Below are positions 55,650 to 64,000 of a DNA stretch of 64,000 nucleotides, piece by piece. Both the position numbers and the translations under genes were made by a program. Position 1 is the stretch's first letter. Every line of letters starts with the position of its first letter. The DNA comes from Anaerolineae bacterium. Lineage in GTDB: Bacteria > Chloroflexota > Anaerolineae > Anaerolineales > Anaerolineaceae. A model generated the notes under the pieces. It worked only from the letters and a program-made list of their open reading frames with translations. It was not told the DNA's origin and searched no databases. The DNA lies in the NCBI GenBank assembly GCA_013178295.1, contig JABLWW010000007.1, positions 124,001-188,000 of the forward strand, given 5' to 3'.

Positions 55650-58292
55650 CTAGCGCGAAATGGCAAGCTTAACCACCTTGCCTTGCGCGTTGAGTGTGGC
55701 ACGGGCATAATGCTGGTGTGTATGCTGCGACCCGCGCACCTGTTTGCTGATGGTAACCACTACACGCCCATCCGCAGCCACCTTTTTCTGTTTCCCCTGG
55801 CTATCTTTCCCGCTATCCTGCTTATCCTCCTCTACCAGCTGCTGCTGGCTGATAGCCACCCGCGCATCTTCAAGACCAGGCAGGTAAGATGAAACGATTT
55901 GCTTCACCTCTTTGATGACTTGATCCGATAACCGATTCGCAGAAAGCTCAGATACCTGATGATCGCAGATGGTTCTGACTCGCGGTAAGCTTTTCATACG
56001 CATCACAGTTTTGGCACGCATACCACCCGTTTCATCAGTTACCAGCGGGTCCCCATAGAGGACAAACGAGAGCAATGTCTTCTGATCCTCACCATCCAGA
56101 AAACCCTGCCGTTGATCCATCTCACGGACAAGTTCCACTTTTGCCTGCATCAACGCCTCGCCAGCAGAGCAACCGGAGCGAAGATGCTTCCAGAAAAAAT
56201 ACCCCAGTAAATCAGCGCCTATCAGAGGCGCACTGACGGAGCCGTAAGAAACGCAGGTTGACCCAACAAATGCCAGCGTGCCAATTGAGATGAACTTCAA
56301 AGCCAGTGCATCCATCTCCCTTTTGTTGACAACATTTGCCCCAAAGCATGACTCCGTAAACACCACCCGCGGCGCCTTCCCATTCTTGATCAAATCCTTT
56401 GGCGAAAGCGCCACAGGATAGTCCTGCATTGAATCGGTTACAGCCGCTTCCTTTTGTCCATACCAGTCCGGCGAGTCAACCAAACCATGCAGATTGTAGT
56501 AGCCATACTGCGAGTCTGTAATCTTATTGTTGGCAAAGCTGCCAGAGTACTCAGGTGGAGATATCAGCAAGGTATCAGTATCTCCTAGCTGCTTATACAC
56601 TGCCTGTGAGGATTGCTTCCACACAGCCGCAGTATATCCCAGACTGAATGGCGGCTTGCTGCCAAACAGCAAGCGCAGAATAGCCTGGATGATATTTCCC
56701 CCATTGATCAAGGAAGAAAGAAAACTGACCGCCTTTTGTGAAGTGGAAGTGGGGGTATGATACTGAATAATCTTGCGCAATTGCTCCAGTAGTAATCCCG
56801 CATCCGAGCCTGCTTCGCCCGGCACACGCCCAACAGGCCATTCAGTAATAAAATAATTCGAGTCAAGCGAAGCGTATGGGTTATCCGAAAGCACATTGAG
56901 GTCTGTGTCATCTGTCGGGTTTGGCAACTGATGAAAGGGCACCACCTCTGGCCCGCCCACAATCAAAAGTGCCCCAATCATCTCTCCCTTTTTGGCTAAT
57001 ACCGCATCCAGGTCTGTCAACGCAAGTTTAATCTTCCAGGGGTCAATTGAGTCGACCGGCTCAATATGCAAATCCTTGAGGTTCTGCACATCATCCGGAT
57101 AGAATACCAACGAGCCCCAACGCGGTTGCTGAGCAATCAGATCAGCCAAACGGTCAAGCTCAGTCATCACAACTGCTGCCGTTTGCTGCCCATATTGCTT
57201 GATCAAACCGGACTTGGTAGACAAAATGACGTAAATTGGATAACGACCGTCCGACCTGCCAATGGAAGGACGGTTCAATTTCTTCGCAATACGGGCAAAT
57301 GCCTCTTCCACCGACTTCAATTCCTCATTCGCCGTCGTCCTCCAGGTGGCAGCCTGGCTGTCCGAAGGAACAGACCCTTTTTGAGTTTGAGGAGTCTGCG
57401 GCACGGCATCTGGCACAGTTTCCTGAGGCGTCAAATCCGCATTCGTAGCCATCGGCTGTGTACTGGAAGCGATATCTATCTCACCAGCAGGTAATTTGTT
57501 CCACCCTAAAATAGCCGCTGCAGCAGCGGGAATGGCATAATCAAATGGAATTTCAAAATTATCGGGATAGAGAGGACGATAGCGAAAATCGCTTCCCCAC
57601 AGACGTATCGCCGCCAACCCAATGGCATCCGCCGCGACACATTGATGCAGCAGATTAACCCCATTGGTCTCATCCCCCATCTCCATCTTTGCATCTGCCA
57701 GACAAAGCTTAAACTGCAGACAATCAGGCCAACGGGTATGATACAGATTCGCCAGCTGATACGTCTGCAGTAGCTCTCCCCTGGCAATGGTAATTTTCAG
57801 ATGCAACACAGCTGCCAACAGCAAATTAGAGTCCATACCGATAGACTGATGCACCAGCGCTTCGGCTTCATCCAGCTTGCCCTCATTGAATAAACTATAA
57901 GCCTGTCGTAACAAGGTTGCCCAGGCAGGCAAAGTGATTGCATACAAAGACTTGCCCAAGGCATAAGCACAGCCCGCAGCTTCCAGCGCCTGCCCTGAAC
58001 CGCGATCAGCATCATACGCCAGCGCCTCCTGCACCTCTGCAAACTCAGGCTCAAGCTGACTGATGCGTGCAAGAATCTCTACCGCCTGTGACTTATTCCC
58101 CTCTGCCAACAAAGCTTTGGCTAACAGGAAGCTCACCTGCAAGTCGCCGGGAAATGAAACCAGCCAATTTTGGGCAATTTGTCTGGCAAAACGGAATGAC
58201 TGGCTTTCCAACGCTGCGTTAAGCACCAGCATAAACCGATGCCGTGAAATTACATTGACCACACTTTGGTTGCCTTGATCATGCTCGCTCAT
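55650..58292 (-). CDS. TPR protein with caspase-fold (C25-like) cysteine protease domain
   Basis: An 880-residue soluble protein with no signal peptide. Residues 1-230 are TPR-like helices (NWLVSFPGDLQVSFLLAKAL). A Pro/Thr/Gln linker (275-320) leads to a peptidase C25/gingipain-like domain (about 345-755). Within it are ALLIVGGPEVVPFHQLP (441-457), DNPYASLDSNYF (470-481), WPVGRVPGEAG (485-495), YYNLHG with the likely catalytic His602, FTESCFGAN with the likely catalytic Cys649, and AFVGSTCVSYGSVSAPLIGA (674-693). The order His then Cys is that of clan CD (caspases, gingipains). The last 120 residues are lysine-rich and of unknown fold. The start overlaps the stop of the giant TPR gene (ATGA), with AGGAGG upstream. 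Substrate and trigger are unknown. Confidence 0.82.
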   Translation of the reverse strand: MSEHDQGNQSVVNVISRHRFMLVLNAALESQSFRFARQIAQNWLVSFPGDLQVSFLLAKALLAEGNKSQAVEILARISQLEPEFAEVQEALAYDADRGSGQALEAAGCAYALGKSLYAITLPAWATLLRQAYSLFNEGKLDEAEALVHQSIGMDSNLLLAAVLHLKITIARGELLQTYQLANLYHTRWPDCLQFKLCLADAKMEMGDETNGVNLLHQCVAADAIGLAAIRLWGSDFRYRPLYPDNFEIPFDYAIPAAAAAILGWNKLPAGEIDIASSTQPMATNADLTPQETVPDAVPQTPQTQKGSVPSDSQAATWRTTANEELKSVEEAFARIAKKLNRPSIGRSDGRYPIYVILSTKSGLIKQYGQQTAAVVMTELDRLADLIAQQPRWGSLVFYPDDVQNLKDLHIEPVDSIDPWKIKLALTDLDAVLAKKGEMIGALLIVGGPEVVPFHQLPNPTDDTDLNVLSDNPYASLDSNYFITEWPVGRVPGEAGSDAGLLLEQLRKIIQYHTPTSTSQKAVSFLSSLINGGNIIQAILRLLFGSKPPFSLGYTAAVWKQSSQAVYKQLGDTDTLLISPPEYSGSFANNKITDSQYGYYNLHGLVDSPDWYGQKEAAVTDSMQDYPVALSPKDLIKNGKAPRVVFTESCFGANVVNKREMDALALKFISIGTLAFVGSTCVSYGSVSAPLIGADLLGYFFWKHLRSGCSAGEALMQAKVELVREMDQRQGFLDGEDQKTLLSFVLYGDPLVTDETGGMRAKTVMRMKSLPRVRTICDHQVSELSANRLSDQVIKEVKQIVSSYLPGLEDARVAISQQQLVEEDKQDSGKDSQGKQKKVAADGRVVVTISKQVRGSQHTHQHYARATLNAQGKVVKLAISR

Positions 58293-61200
58293 AGATACGA
58301 ATTAGCCTCCTGAGGGTTATGTACAAGGTTTAGTGCAATAACCGCGCCAAGTTGACGTCGAATATTCAGATCATCCGGAGAAAGTTCCGATGCCCTGCGC
58401 AGCATCGCCTCAGCCCCCACGTAATCCTTTATCTCGCGCATCACCAAAGCAGCCGCATAAAACAGACGAGGCTCATCGGGCAACACCTTAATTCCCATCT
58501 CATACACTTGCAGCGCCTGCAACAACTCACGGCGTTCCTGGTATGTCGCGCCCAGTTCCTGGTAGGCTTCAAACATTTGTGGCGACTGGACAATTGCCTG
58601 GCTCAGGTGGTGAATTGCCGTGTCCAGCTGACCCGATTTGCGCATCAAGCGCCCCAGCAGCAAATTGAGTTCAGCATTCTCTGGTTGCAAACGCAAAGCA
58701 GCCAGCGCGGCACGTTCGGCATCGGCAAACTCGCCACAATCTGCCAAAACCATCGCCAGCAACCCTAACACATCTGGCTGATTGGGGTAAAGTTCCTCAA
58801 GTTTTTGTGCAAGTGGCAAAGCCGCCTGCGCATCATACCGCTGGCGCGTCAACCTGACACGTGCATAGAGCACAGACTTGGATAACTGGTATTCCTGCGG
58901 CATGCCATCCAGCACATCAAGCGCTTCCTGCAATTTACCCTGCTCCTCAAGAATATGAGACATCAAAAGCCAGGCTTCCTGCGATTGTGATTGACGCTTC
59001 AGCCCCTCCTGAGCATACTGATACGCCGTCTGATAATCTTTCATTTGCAAGCAAATTCTGCCGCACAGCAACGCCGCGGCAGAAGACGTACTATCCAGCT
59101 GATCTGCCATGCGGGCACATTCCAGCGCTTCCAGTAAATTTCCAACGCGCTGATAGGCTTCGGACAGCAAAAACCAGGTTTTGACCTGATTCGCACTGAT
59201 CTGCGAGATGTTGCGCAGAACCTGTATCGCCTTGTTGGGGTCATTCTGCTCAAGATACACCTCCCCAAGCGCCAGACCGTACTCGACTTTTGTGGGCTGC
59301 AACGAGAATGCCTGTTTCCAGTGGTACAAACTCTCTTCATTCATCCCGATTTGCAAAGCAATGCGGGCTGCACTGGCATGCCATTCCGGTTCATCACCCC
59401 AAGTCCGCAATGCCGTTTGCAACGCCCCCAACGCCTGATCAGGAAGACCAGCCTCCCAGGCTAGCAGAGCCACAACCACATTGTACACCGGGTCAGCAGG
59501 GCGATCCTCAACCGCCTGACGCGCATACTCCAGACCAACTTCAGCACCATTTGCCCGATAACATAATGCTCTCTGAATAAGATAGTCTGCTTTCTCCGGG
59601 AGTCTTAAAGCTAACTCCAGTGCCAGTTTCGGGTTCTTCAACTGCCGCAAAGCTGCCACGATCGCGGCTTTATCATCCAATGCTTCCGAAAGTTTGTCCA
59701 ACACCTCAATGCTTTGCACTGTCAAATCAAATGCCAGATGCCCTCTGGCATGCCAGCGTTTCACCTCTTTACTGTTGCTAATTTGCCACGCACTTGCCAG
59801 CGCTCTCTCTAGTTTGGCAAACGTCTCCTTTGAGAGACTTTCCCGCCCAGGGGCATGTGACACACAGCCAACCTCGTCAAACAAACGCTGCTTTTCAGCA
59901 CACATCACCAATGCTTTTGCATATTGAAGCATCACATATCCATTGTTTGCATGGCGCGTCAGGGTCAACTCAAAAAACCGAAGTGCCTGATCCCATAGAC
60001 AAAGCTCAAAAGCCACTTGCGCCAGCCAGAGATAGCTCTCCCGTTGCCAGTATAAAACCAGCGCATCACCAAAGAAGTCGCTCACTGTCTCAATTTCAAC
60101 AGCTTCATGCCCCGCAACAACCTCCGCCAGCTTGCTGTAAATCTCCTCAGCTGCTTTCAATTGCCCCTGTCTGATAAGCAAGCGCGCCTGTATTGCCTGA
60201 AGACGCACGGCATCGGGGTCAAACTCCAGCCCCTGGCGTACCAGCTCCGCTGCCGCCATCTCATCACCCTTCTCAAGAGTACGCTCCGCACGGGCACAAA
60301 GCAAAGACATCCAGGCATGGGGCGTCCTCTCCCTTTCGGCGCTTGTCTGCTGATCTTCCCCTTCAAGCGCCATCAAAGATTGGAGCACGCCATCACCCTG
60401 CAGAAGCGCCAGAGCAATATCAAAGGCAAAAAAGCGGCAGACAAGGTTGTCGGGCAACAACTCCGCCGCTTTCTGAGCATGGTATAGCGCTGATGAAAGA
60501 TTGCCCCCCATGCGCAGAAGATGGGCAATACGAATATGAATGCCCGCTTTGGAACGCACCGTCTCCAGCCATTGTTCTGCCATCAGTCCCGACTTAATCA
60601 GTCTATAGAAGTGATCACGAGGTGCCACTGCGAAGCCCATGTCCAAAATCGCAAGGGCGCGTTCCAGACACGCCTGTGCTGCCTGAGGGCGGTCTAACTT
60701 CAAAAGCAAGTCGGCTTCAAAAACCTGTAACACAGCATCAGAGGGGGCAAACCCTATTGCCTTTTGCACAGAATACAAAGCCGCTTCGGCGTCTCCCATA
60801 GCCGCCTGCAAGCAGGATAGCTCAAAGAGAAAATCAACGGATTGGCTATCCTCCTGCACCAACGCCTGCCCAAGACTGGAAAGAGCAGAAGCCTTGTCGT
60901 TCAACTCAAGAAACACGTATGCCACCCGTCTCCAATGATCTCCCGATAACTGCTCAAATTTGAGCAGAGAGGATAGCGCCCGACGCGCCTCCTCCTCGTT
61001 ACCAGTGCGTACGCAAGCCTCAGCTAACAGGAGCCAGTTTTCAGGGCTGGTTGCGTCAAGCTCGGTAACACAGGTTAATGCCTCTATCGCCTCCCCGTCT
61101 TCTTCGAGCCTGATTGCAATGTCGGCAAACCATAGCAGCACGTGGATATCATTTGAGGCAAGTTTCAAAATCGTACGCGCTGTCTGCATTGCTTCATCCC

Positions 61201-64000
61201 TGAGCTGCGCCAGCAATAGCGCCTCTGCCAGAAGTCTTTGCAAAAGAATGTTCTCGGGGCGAGCCTGAACTGCTTCCTTCAAAACAGCCAATGCTGTTTC
61301 GACTTCTTGCTGTTGAAGAGCGACTTTTCCCAGCCCTCCCATCACCCGCCAGTGCCACTCAGGTGAACCAGCCAACGGGTGGTCAACAAGCTGCTGGTAG
61401 CATTCGAATGCCAACTGCCACTCCGCCTGGGCAGCAAGAACTTCAGCATACAGAAGGCTGATTTCAAAGTCTTCTGGCTTGATCTGCCGGGCTTTCTCCA
61501 AAGCGTAGCGTGCATTAACAAGCCTGCTAAAATCCGGGCACGGTGCGTCGCACAGAAAAACATTCTTATCTCCCAACAAAGCTTTGACATACATGTTCAG
61601 AACATCAAAGTCGGCATTACCCCCTTGAACAACCAGCTCCAACCCCGGCAATGCTTCATCGGTTTTTCCCAAAGCCAGCATGACGCGGGCATAGATTAAC
61701 ACCAGGTCAGCATTTTGTGGCCACTTTTGAACAGCCTGCTCAAGGCTTAAGCGCGCTTCCTCATACTGCTTCAAGGAGAAAAGCGCGTTGCCCAGCCGAA
61801 GCGAGACTTCAACTGATTCGGGTGCCAGTCTTGCAGCCTGTTGCAAAAACGGCAGTGCCTGGCTTGTCAACCCCGCTGCCATGCTTGCCTCTGCCAGTGC
61901 CAGATTCACCTTAACCGAATCAGGCACAGCCAAAACCGCAGCGCGAAGAGTTTCCAAGCTGCGCTGATCGTCCCCATCCCGCTTATACAGTTCCGACAAT
62001 AATAGCCAGTTATCCGCCACATCCGGCGCCAGCAATGTGGCACGGCTAAGGTAATGCTTAGCTTTTTCATCTTCCCCCAATTGATAAAACGCCTGGCCAA
62101 ACAGAGAGTTTGCCATGCCATTGTCAGCATCCTTATCAAGGACTGTCTCACAAACACGAATGGTTACCTCGGGTTGACCAACATGTAAAGCACAGCGAGC
62201 ATAAGCCATCACATCCGATGGTTGCGATGAAAGAGAAAAACGTAAAACATTTTCGCGATGAACAAATGCTCGCACCCAATTCTCACTCTGCTCAAGCTTT
62301 TCCGCCAAACGGCGCTGAATGTTAACATCCTGTGGCAAAACCTCCGCCGCTGACTGCAGCGTGTCCAGCGCGCCGGATGTGTCTCCCTCCCTTTCCTGCA
62401 AATTGGTTAGCACAATCCAGTTCTCAGCGACATCTGGTTTTAGAGCAATTGCCTCCTTAACACACTGGGCTGATTTTTCAAACTCGCCCAGCTGATACAA
62501 AGCCCACCCCATCATGGACTTTGCCATGCCATCCTCCCCTTTTGCCTGCAGCACCCTCTCGCATGCCTCCAGCGTCTGCCGGTAATTCTTGGTTTCATAC
62601 GCACTGCGCGCATAGGCAAGCAAATCCCTGTCTTCTGGATCGGGTGATAAATACACCACATGGTTGCGATGATCGAACGCTTTGTGCCATTCGTTAAGCG
62701 TCTCCCAGATTTCTGCGATCTGTCTGTGAACCTCCACACAATCGGGAACTGCGTTAACCGCCAAATGCAAAGTCTCCAGACTTTGCTGGACTTCACCATT
62801 TTTCCTCTGCAAATCTGCCAGTACCAGCCAGCTCTCTTTTTCAGTGGGTGCAAGCGAAATGGCTTTCTTAAGATATTGAGCAGCGTCGTCTTTCCTGCCC
62901 AGTAGCGCCAGCGCCTTCCCCATCAATGCAATAGCCTCCAGGTGATTTGGTTGCTGCTCCATCACTTTGGCACATGCCTCCACCGCATGGCGGGGTTTTT
63001 CTGCACCTACTGCACTTCGTGCCAGTGCAACCCAATCCTCAACCGCTGGTTGTTGTAACAGCTTTGCCACACGATGTCTGTGCTCAAATGACTTTTTCCA
63101 ATCGCCGTGTTTCTCCCACAATTCTGCAATCTTGCGCAGCAGATCAGGCGCATCAGGCTTGAGAATGGCACACACTTGCGCATAACCCAGCGCCTGATCA
63201 TTATCTCCCAATTTCTGGAGAATTAAACTGACCAGTTCAAGAAGCTCCACATCTGCCGGACGCACCTGTAAGAAAAGCAAAGCCAGTTGCAGCGCTTCCT
63301 GTGTCAAGTCCAACCCCAATAATGCCTCTACCCACGAGATTGGCTGCCAGTTCAATAGAAATTGTGCACGAAATAGCTGCTCCCCTTTTGCCGCTCTTTC
63401 CACCAACACAGCAACCGCCCTGCGCCCCAGAGCCTGCGCCTTAGACCGATCTCCCTTCCCAGCAAGCCGCGCTGCCTGCCAAAGCTGTATAAAAGGATCG
63501 TCAGATTTTCCCATTTCAGGGATTTGCACCTGTTTTGCCCTTTCAGTGTGGTCAAACAACAAGGCTATCTCGGCATATAGACTATCCGCCTCAGGCAAGG
63601 CAGCAATAGATTTCTTGATTGCCGCCAGCGCCTCCTCCATCTGCCCCTCCTGAGAAGCTACATCAAGCAATTGAAGATGCACCCCGGTCATGTAGTAAAG
63701 AATAGCCTCTTTTGAACGGTGAAGAAGCTGTGCAGCTTTTTCTGGCTGCCCAGATAACTGATACAGCCCGGCAAGCTGCTGCAATGTCAATGCGCTGCCC
63801 ACAATTCTATTCAGATCGTTATCCGAGTGCATCTCGCGTAGAACTCCAGACTCAGCAGCTTTTGCATCGGTCAACAGCTTGTCTGATAATTGAATCACCA
63901 GTTCTGTGTGTCCCTGGAAGTTCATCAAACGCAGCCAGGTCAACTGCTGCGATAACGAAAGAGCATCCATGACCTCAAGAAAAGTTTTCAACCGCTCTTG
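58289..64000 (-). CDS. Giant TPR protein (N-terminus outside the window)
   Basis: At least 1903 residues, open to the right edge, so the true start lies beyond the window; TTG 63991 is just the first possible start inside. Almost all of it is tetratricopeptide repeats, dozens of them, from residue 70 to the C-terminus (for example LGDNDQALGYAQVCAILKPD and LLGRLMRKSGQLDTAIHHLS). Residues 289-699 (counting from 63991) hold three units of exactly 137 residues. No enzyme domain, signal peptide or membrane helix is visible. TPR arrays are scaffolds for protein binding. It is translationally coupled to the protease gene, so its likely role is to bind, control or recruit that protease. Confidence 0.85.
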   Translation of the reverse strand, partial: QERLKTFLEVMDALSLSQQLTWLRLMNFQGHTELVIQLSDKLLTDAKAAESGVLREMHSDNDLNRIVGSALTLQQLAGLYQLSGQPEKAAQLLHRSKEAILYYMTGVHLQLLDVASQEGQMEEALAAIKKSIAALPEADSLYAEIALLFDHTERAKQVQIPEMGKSDDPFIQLWQAARLAGKGDRSKAQALGRRAVAVLVERAAKGEQLFRAQFLLNWQPISWVEALLGLDLTQEALQLALLFLQVRPADVELLELVSLILQKLGDNDQALGYAQVCAILKPDAPDLLRKIAELWEKHGDWKKSFEHRHRVAKLLQQPAVEDWVALARSAVGAEKPRHAVEACAKVMEQQPNHLEAIALMGKALALLGRKDDAAQYLKKAISLAPTEKESWLVLADLQRKNGEVQQSLETLHLAVNAVPDCVEVHRQIAEIWETLNEWHKAFDHRNHVVYLSPDPEDRDLLAYARSAYETKNYRQTLEACERVLQAKGEDGMAKSMMGWALYQLGEFEKSAQCVKEAIALKPDVAENWIVLTNLQEREGDTSGALDTLQSAAEVLPQDVNIQRRLAEKLEQSENWVRAFVHRENVLRFSLSSQPSDVMAYARCALHVGQPEVTIRVCETVLDKDADNGMANSLFGQAFYQLGEDEKAKHYLSRATLLAPDVADNWLLLSELYKRDGDDQRSLETLRAAVLAVPDSVKVNLALAEASMAAGLTSQALPFLQQAARLAPESVEVSLRLGNALFSLKQYEEARLSLEQAVQKWPQNADLVLIYARVMLALGKTDEALPGLELVVQGGNADFDVLNMYVKALLGDKNVFLCDAPCPDFSRLVNARYALEKARQIKPEDFEISLLYAEVLAAQAEWQLAFECYQQLVDHPLAGSPEWHWRVMGGLGKVALQQQEVETALAVLKEAVQARPENILLQRLLAEALLLAQLRDEAMQTARTILKLASNDIHVLLWFADIAIRLEEDGEAIEALTCVTELDATSPENWLLLAEACVRTGNEEEARRALSSLLKFEQLSGDHWRRVAYVFLELNDKASALSSLGQALVQEDSQSVDFLFELSCLQAAMGDAEAALYSVQKAIGFAPSDAVLQVFEADLLLKLDRPQAAQACLERALAILDMGFAVAPRDHFYRLIKSGLMAEQWLETVRSKAGIHIRIAHLLRMGGNLSSALYHAQKAAELLPDNLVCRFFAFDIALALLQGDGVLQSLMALEGEDQQTSAERERTPHAWMSLLCARAERTLEKGDEMAAAELVRQGLEFDPDAVRLQAIQARLLIRQGQLKAAEEIYSKLAEVVAGHEAVEIETVSDFFGDALVLYWQRESYLWLAQVAFELCLWDQALRFFELTLTRHANNGYVMLQYAKALVMCAEKQRLFDEVGCVSHAPGRESLSKETFAKLERALASAWQISNSKEVKRWHARGHLAFDLTVQSIEVLDKLSEALDDKAAIVAALRQLKNPKLALELALRLPEKADYLIQRALCYRANGAEVGLEYARQAVEDRPADPVYNVVVALLAWEAGLPDQALGALQTALRTWGDEPEWHASAARIALQIGMNEESLYHWKQAFSLQPTKVEYGLALGEVYLEQNDPNKAIQVLRNISQISANQVKTWFLLSEAYQRVGNLLEALECARMADQLDSTSSAAALLCGRICLQMKDYQTAYQYAQEGLKRQSQSQEAWLLMSHILEEQGKLQEALDVLDGMPQEYQLSKSVLYARVRLTRQRYDAQAALPLAQKLEELYPNQPDVLGLLAMVLADCGEFADAERAALAALRLQPENAELNLLLGRLMRKSGQLDTAIHHLSQAIVQSPQMFEAYQELGATYQERRELLQALQVYEMGIKVLPDEPRLFYAAALVMREIKDYVGAEAMLRRASELSPDDLNIRRQLGAVIALNLVHNPQEANSYL
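61895..63127 (-). repeat. Three 411-base (137-residue) super-repeats in the TPR gene
   Basis: Units at 63127-62717, 62716-62306 and 62305-61895. Anchors AELWEKHGDWKKSFEHRHRV, AEIWETLNEWHKAFDHRNHV and AEKLEQSENWVRAFVHRENV begin the units exactly 137 residues apart (positions 289, 426, 563), and a fourth start (AEASMAAGL) is at 700. Tryptophans at 388, 525 and 662 keep the same spacing. Each unit is about four TPRs. Confidence 0.85.

Follow-up and report, generated by a model that had tools for sequence, protein, structure and literature searches.

A TPR and C25-fold protease pair linked to sigma-54 promoters and a second FtsZ in Anaerolineae: a putative cell-division regulon

From sequence comparisons we consider, at slightly better than even confidence, that a giant TPR protein and a putative C25-fold cysteine protease (the TPR-C25 pair) form the core of a sigma-54-controlled cell-division or septation regulon in Anaerolineae, together with an alternative FtsZ (FtsZ2). 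The pair was found in a stretch of 64,000 nucleotides of an Anaerolineaceae genome (C19:124001-188000, hereafter the window). We favor this reading because -24/-12 sites occur at smORF-TPR-C25, at the operon of FtsZ2 and a barrel protein, and at ftsL, and because of fixed synteny and co-occurrence. The separate clade and tail peptide of FtsZ2 also argue for it, as do MraZ, a DivIVA-like coiled coil and Amidase_2 in deep relatives. The regulon and the linkage are well supported, and we infer a role for the protease as a cytoplasmic trigger or processing factor.

Results

A TPR-C25 gene pair with an invariant His and Cys

A preliminary description of the window had reported two open reading frames overlapping as ATGA, encoding a TPR protein of more than 1900 residues and an 880-residue C25-like protein. 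This was confirmed, the full TPR protein being 2,096 aa long with its gene start 579 bp past the window end (Table 1). The gene downstream of the protease is alaS. The ordered pair noted earlier in the protease, His602 in YYNLHG and Cys649 in TESCFG, withstood a conservation check, as both residues were invariant in 41/41 aligned relatives and in all 131 distinct sequences once deep relatives were added. Also fixed in the 41-relative alignment were N600, G603, W610, E647, D733, E735 and K738, with K875 and S879 invariant in a small C-terminal beta domain.

Table 1. Positions of the genes and sigma-54 sites discussed in the text. Coordinates without a prefix are those of the window.
Feature	Position	Strand	Remarks
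TPR + C25-fold cysteine protease	55650..58292	(-)	880 aa, ATG start; His602, Cys649
Giant TPR protein	58289..64000, onward to C19:188579 (gene C19:182289-188579)	(-)	2,096 aa; ORF
Two-TM small protein (smORF)	~C19:188638-188961	same as TPR-C25	~107 aa; outside window
Sigma-54 promoter of smORF	C19:189003-189018	same as TPR-C25	AGGCACATTTCTTGCA; outside window
Sigma-54 activator	C19:189025-190203	same as TPR-C25	receiver-AAA+; outside window
PAS/GAF histidine kinase	C19:190200-192146	same as TPR-C25	outside window
rpoN	C19:192143-193576	same as TPR-C25	outside window
Sigma-54 site before rpoN	C19:193604-193619	same as TPR-C25	TGGCATAAAACTTGCA; outside window
Barrel protein	L182:5760-7343, C17	(-)	GH39-like model
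FtsZ2	L182:4593-5756, C17		basis: FtsZ profiles
Sigma-54 site of barrel-FtsZ2	C17:183338-183353		basis: -24/-12 motif
ftsL sigma-54 site	C1:269903-269918		basis: -24/-12 motif

The AlphaFold model of the protease (pLDDT 81) was laid out as a TPR array (residues ~17-240), a low-confidence linker, a catalytic region (~350-758) and the C-terminal beta domain. Its best structural match was RgpB (Z 31.3 over 306 residues, rmsd 2.8), bearing out the clan-CD, C25-like fold suggested beforehand; RgpB and Kgp (Z 29-31) ranked above separase (14-17), which in turn ranked above Csx29/TPR-CHAT (12-14). Pfam C25 (PF01364) matched 17/28 relatives with a best E of 4.3e-15, and the CHAT profile, weak and not the best profile, matched 4/28 (best 0.0038). 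Pfam made no C25 call for the window protease itself, and PDB sequence searches with the whole protease or the catalytic domain returned TPR or chance matches only. Judged by its predicted structure, and with weak profile matches, the 880-aa protein is C25-fold; it is outside any known C25 system. We looked for a hydrophobic N-terminus in relatives of the protease and the TPR protein and found none, and no signal peptide, suggesting that the protease is apparently located in the cytosol, as had been predicted. The same genome encodes a second C25-like protein of 594 aa (L004:9690-11474, minus strand, contig C1; PF01364 E 3.5e-4), which is membrane-bound, adjoins an iron-sulphur membrane protein and is unrelated to the cluster.

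The pair belongs to a conserved cluster with rpoN

The earlier statement that no sensor or effector lies beside the pair proved to be an artefact of the window edge, as a kinase, a sigma-54 activator, rpoN and a two-TM protein are encoded just outside it. The gap of ~290-510 bp between the activator and TPR genes, seemingly intergenic, encodes a smORF beyond the promoter. The smORF product, found in 118 loci, has two hydrophobic segments flanking an amphipathic stretch (GLVGNAS..L...N.L..T..GIG.FL) and matched no Pfam family by sequence. As a -24/-12 site lies near the activator stop and the smORF fills the remaining gap, smORF-TPR-C25 can be read as one transcription unit.

Within Anaerolineaceae the synteny rpoN-HK-NtrC-TPR-C25 is fixed. 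Across the class Anaerolineae the full set is rpoN-kinase-activator-smORF-TPR-C25-(GH39-like barrel)-second FtsZ. Outside Anaerolineaceae the arrangement is often smORF-TPR-C25-barrel-FtsZ2, or barrel-FtsZ2 is upstream, and rpoN-kinase-activator lies upstream in several lineages (L061, L221, L223, L237 and L241). Most other families of the order, and also other orders of the class, have the barrel and FtsZ2 genes near the protease; in Anaerolineaceae these lie away from it, with their own sigma-54 promoter.

The protease gene was present in 88/101 relatives of the order, nearly always as a single copy. We found 276 related stretches in GTDB species genomes, and 80/80 of those listed were from Chloroflexota. 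In the class outside the order the protease is patchy; it also occurs elsewhere in the phylum, with 36/400 sampled genomes carrying it in all. Adjacency of the pair, a point raised by the preliminary description, was near-constant: where enough upstream sequence was available, the TPR gene almost always lies directly upstream of the protease. A protease relative lacking a TPR partner, named beforehand as a refuting case, was seen at three loci only, G017, G074 and G082, which have no adjoining TPR gene. The single-contig genome G017 (L390) is a natural variant that could show what the TPR protein contributes, having lost the TPR gene and the smORF promoter and kept kinase, activator, smORF and protease.

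The TPR-C25 pair is apparently inherited vertically, which fits the grouping of the FtsZ2 tree by family. The smORF-TPR-C25 set is kept across several Chloroflexota classes, and in these other classes no sigma-54 site was found upstream of it. The protease there is thus independent of sigma-54 control, suggesting that its function is older than that control. Among the 75 genomes with a completeness of 90% or more, RpoN and the protease were both present in 66, the protease only in 2, RpoN only in 1 and neither in 6. FtsZ2 and the protease likewise co-occur, FtsZ2 presence being scored from the number and strength of FtsZ matches; the genomes are related, so that the co-occurrence p-values are indicative.

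Sigma-54 sites mark three shared targets

In every locus (74/74) in which smORF-TPR-C25 follows the activator, a -24/-12 site lay upstream of it, close to the activator stop. Such a site also preceded the barrel-FtsZ2 operon in 23/25 loci (two of the 25 from a neighboring family), and one of the two loci without a site is that of G018, which keeps FtsZ2 without detected RpoN or protease. A further site is often found before FtsZ2 itself. In the dcw cluster, ftsL lies between rsmH and a septal-type PBP gene (ftsL-ftsI), and in ~25/30 loci tested the short rsmH-ftsL gap held a site with a score of 10 or more out of 11. For each of these three targets the binomial probability was below 1e-40, with independence assumed. 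The strict motif occurred 12 and 8 times genome-wide in two Anaerolineaceae genomes, the targets common to more than one genome being rpoN, smORF-TPR-C25, barrel, FtsZ2 and ftsL; most of the sigma-54 matches listed in the window's genome have unclear spacing. Some genomes in which no RpoN was found still have ftsL sites, partly in degenerate form.

The idea that sigma-54 is devoted to a single operon was rejected, as barrel-FtsZ2 and ftsL are further targets. An 858-aa membrane protein (L183:5481-8057) was also rejected as a core member, being near-universal (97/101) with a patchily conserved promoter; this protein (L183:5481-8057/L330, family unassigned) has a sigma-54 site close upstream in few genomes only. 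In the window's genome a sigma-54-type site (L148:1501-1516) also lies 84 nt before the gene of a multi-TM GAF protein.

One activator without a DNA-binding domain

The window's genome gave one strong sigma-54 activator match. As sigma-54 needs an activator (PMC3162934), all sigma-54 output probably passes through this kinase-activator pair; the PAS/GAF kinase is probably cytosolic. The activator has GAFTSA instead of GAFTGA, with the F and T kept. In the order, activators mostly end ~37 residues after WPGN, lacking a Fis-type DNA-binding domain, and class-level relatives keep a Fis-like tail. A second activator, often of ~665-740 aa, was present in about 15 of the 88 relatives with RpoN, and G065 and G078 carry one of this second type without detected RpoN.

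FlgR of Helicobacter and CtcC of Chlamydia are the sole known sigma-54 activators in their hosts. Both resemble the activator described here in having no DNA-binding domain (PMC3162934), but they are tied to flagella or development and ours to division genes.

FtsZ2 is a genuine FtsZ outside the dcw cluster

FtsZ2 has Tubulin (PF00091, 1e-45) and FtsZ_C (PF12327, 1.5e-20) domains and, in nearly all members, a conserved C-terminal peptide LDxPAFLRRR (LDLPAFLRRR-type). It is 45-51% identical to the dcw FtsZ, forms a clade apart from it (support 100/100) and diverges faster. In two loci inspected in full FtsZ2 lay outside the dcw cluster, in which the dcw FtsZ, a different gene, follows ftsA. Protease-less genomes of groups f12 and f6, as well as G063 and G087, had one FtsZ only.

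The barrel protein matched no family by sequence in Pfam or PDB. Its model (pLDDT 68) is a clan GH-A TIM-barrel, with a best Z of ~18 to GH39 enzymes. The catalytic Glu motifs NEP and YENG were present in only two class-level members of the alignment (L237 and L241), and the barrels of Anaerolineales have FDxPN with no Glu, suggesting that an enzyme has likely turned into a pseudo-glycosidase in this order. At two deep loci (L238:14698-18383 and L239:13798-17315) an insertion between barrel and FtsZ2 encodes MraZ, a secreted Amidase_2 and a coiled-coil protein that weakly matches DivIVA, and the L241 cluster also contains the amidase.

Discussion

In the septation regulon that we propose, the kinase would phosphorylate the activator, which would open sigma-54 promoters from solution, so that FtsL-FtsI and FtsZ2 would be raised through sigma-54 and FtsZ2 could form a ring, either alternative or auxiliary. 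The two-TM protein may anchor the TPR superhelix at the membrane, where the TPR arrays would bring a substrate to the C25 domain. This domain may then cut a component of the apparatus irreversibly, for timing, disassembly or abscission, much as helical repeats and a clan-CD protease are combined in separase and Craspase. Some observations speak against the proposed regulon, namely the smORF-TPR-C25 sets of other Chloroflexota classes with no upstream sigma-54 site, the FtsZ2 of at least one genome (G018) with neither RpoN nor protease detected, the G017 protease with no adjoining TPR gene, and the ftsL sites of genomes in which no RpoN was found. A bolder version, which we hold only tentatively, is a second, switchable division machine, in which sigma-54 and the activator without DNA-binding domain command the FtsZ2 ring, part of dcw and a membrane-anchored TPR/C25 complex whose separase-like cut finishes septation or filament fragmentation.

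The secreted Amidase_2 of deep relatives, the septal-type PBP downstream of ftsL and the barrels of some deep members with both catalytic Glu motifs would also suit an envelope-biogenesis programme, with FtsZ2 and ftsL-ftsI recruited to wall synthesis and the protease, not itself active in division, maturing or degrading envelope-assembly factors; control of the bacterial exterior has been proposed as a role of sigma-54 (PMC3162934). However, a polymer-type FtsZ, complete with tail peptide, is the central conserved partner, and neither protease nor TPR protein has a hydrophobic N-terminus, so we regard this explanation as unlikely. FtsZ2 could also have a task outside division. It might build a cytoskeletal filament, a vesicle or an internal membrane that TPR protein and protease help to assemble or turn over, which the faster divergence of FtsZ2 and the link of other extra FtsZ-like families to membrane remodelling (PMC2875224) would allow. 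The sigma-54 sites at ftsL-ftsI and the association with MraZ and amidase point instead to division, making such a structure somewhat more doubtful still. An anti-phage or programmed-death module resembling TPR-CHAT/Craspase or a gasdermin-cleaving protease, in which the two-TM protein would be a pore-forming effector, would match the architecture (TPR, clan-CD protease and small membrane protein) and the Z of 12-14 to Csx29 and Craspase TPR-CHAT, but is very improbable. Nearly the whole order carries the genes, as single copies in fixed core synteny; they share promoters with division genes, are closer to gingipains than to CHAT and gave only generic TPR matches in PADLOC.

The preliminary description had weighed defence islands against fixed core synteny for the relatives and had drawn the TPR-CHAT/Craspase immune analogy. 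The core-synteny part stood, and we rejected the defence-island part; the immune analogy was not upheld, the genes being core-like with rpoN, histidine kinase, activator and second FtsZ as neighbors, which MraZ and amidase join in deep relatives.

Returning to the proposed septation regulon, its protease shares with the gingipains RgpB and Kgp the catalytic fold, the order of His-Gly then Glu-x-Cys and a GDP motif near the domain end. In contrast to them it is apparently cytosolic, carries an N-terminal TPR in place of the secretion prodomain and belongs to a sigma-54 operon. Separase (C50) similarly joins helical repeats to a clan-CD protease, with a possible one-way cut in cell division as a further parallel, whereas the protein here is bacterial, has a lower Z to separase (~14-17) than to gingipains, has its repeats mostly on a separate protein and has no known securin or cohesin. 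Craspase TPR-CHAT/Csx29 also combines TPR with a clan-CD protease, but our protein is C25 rather than CHAT and a core gene product rather than a defence one, and no Cas7-11 was among the neighbors inspected (rpoN, kinase, activator, AlaS and FtsZ2). The likeness to separase and Craspase is one of architecture only. FtsZl1 and FtsZl2 are likewise extra tubulin-superfamily proteins, FtsZl1 also in a conserved operon (PMC2875224), whereas FtsZ2 has the Tubulin and FtsZ_C domains and tail peptide of a genuine FtsZ.

Our search of the open-access literature found no description of this cluster. To our knowledge sigma-54 is not known to govern cell division, and we found no such case in that literature either. 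The C25 fold, TPR, FtsZ and RpoN are parts of known kinds, and we rate as new their combination and promoter wiring. In a group of filamentous bacteria that is widespread but poorly understood, promoters, synteny and co-occurrence connect sigma-54 with a second FtsZ, with ftsL-ftsI and with a putative protease complex of large size. If the proposal is true, these bacteria would have a dedicated division switch and a clan-CD protease likely to act in the cell cycle, which would be directly testable in cultured species (Anaerolinea, Longilinea and Bellilinea).
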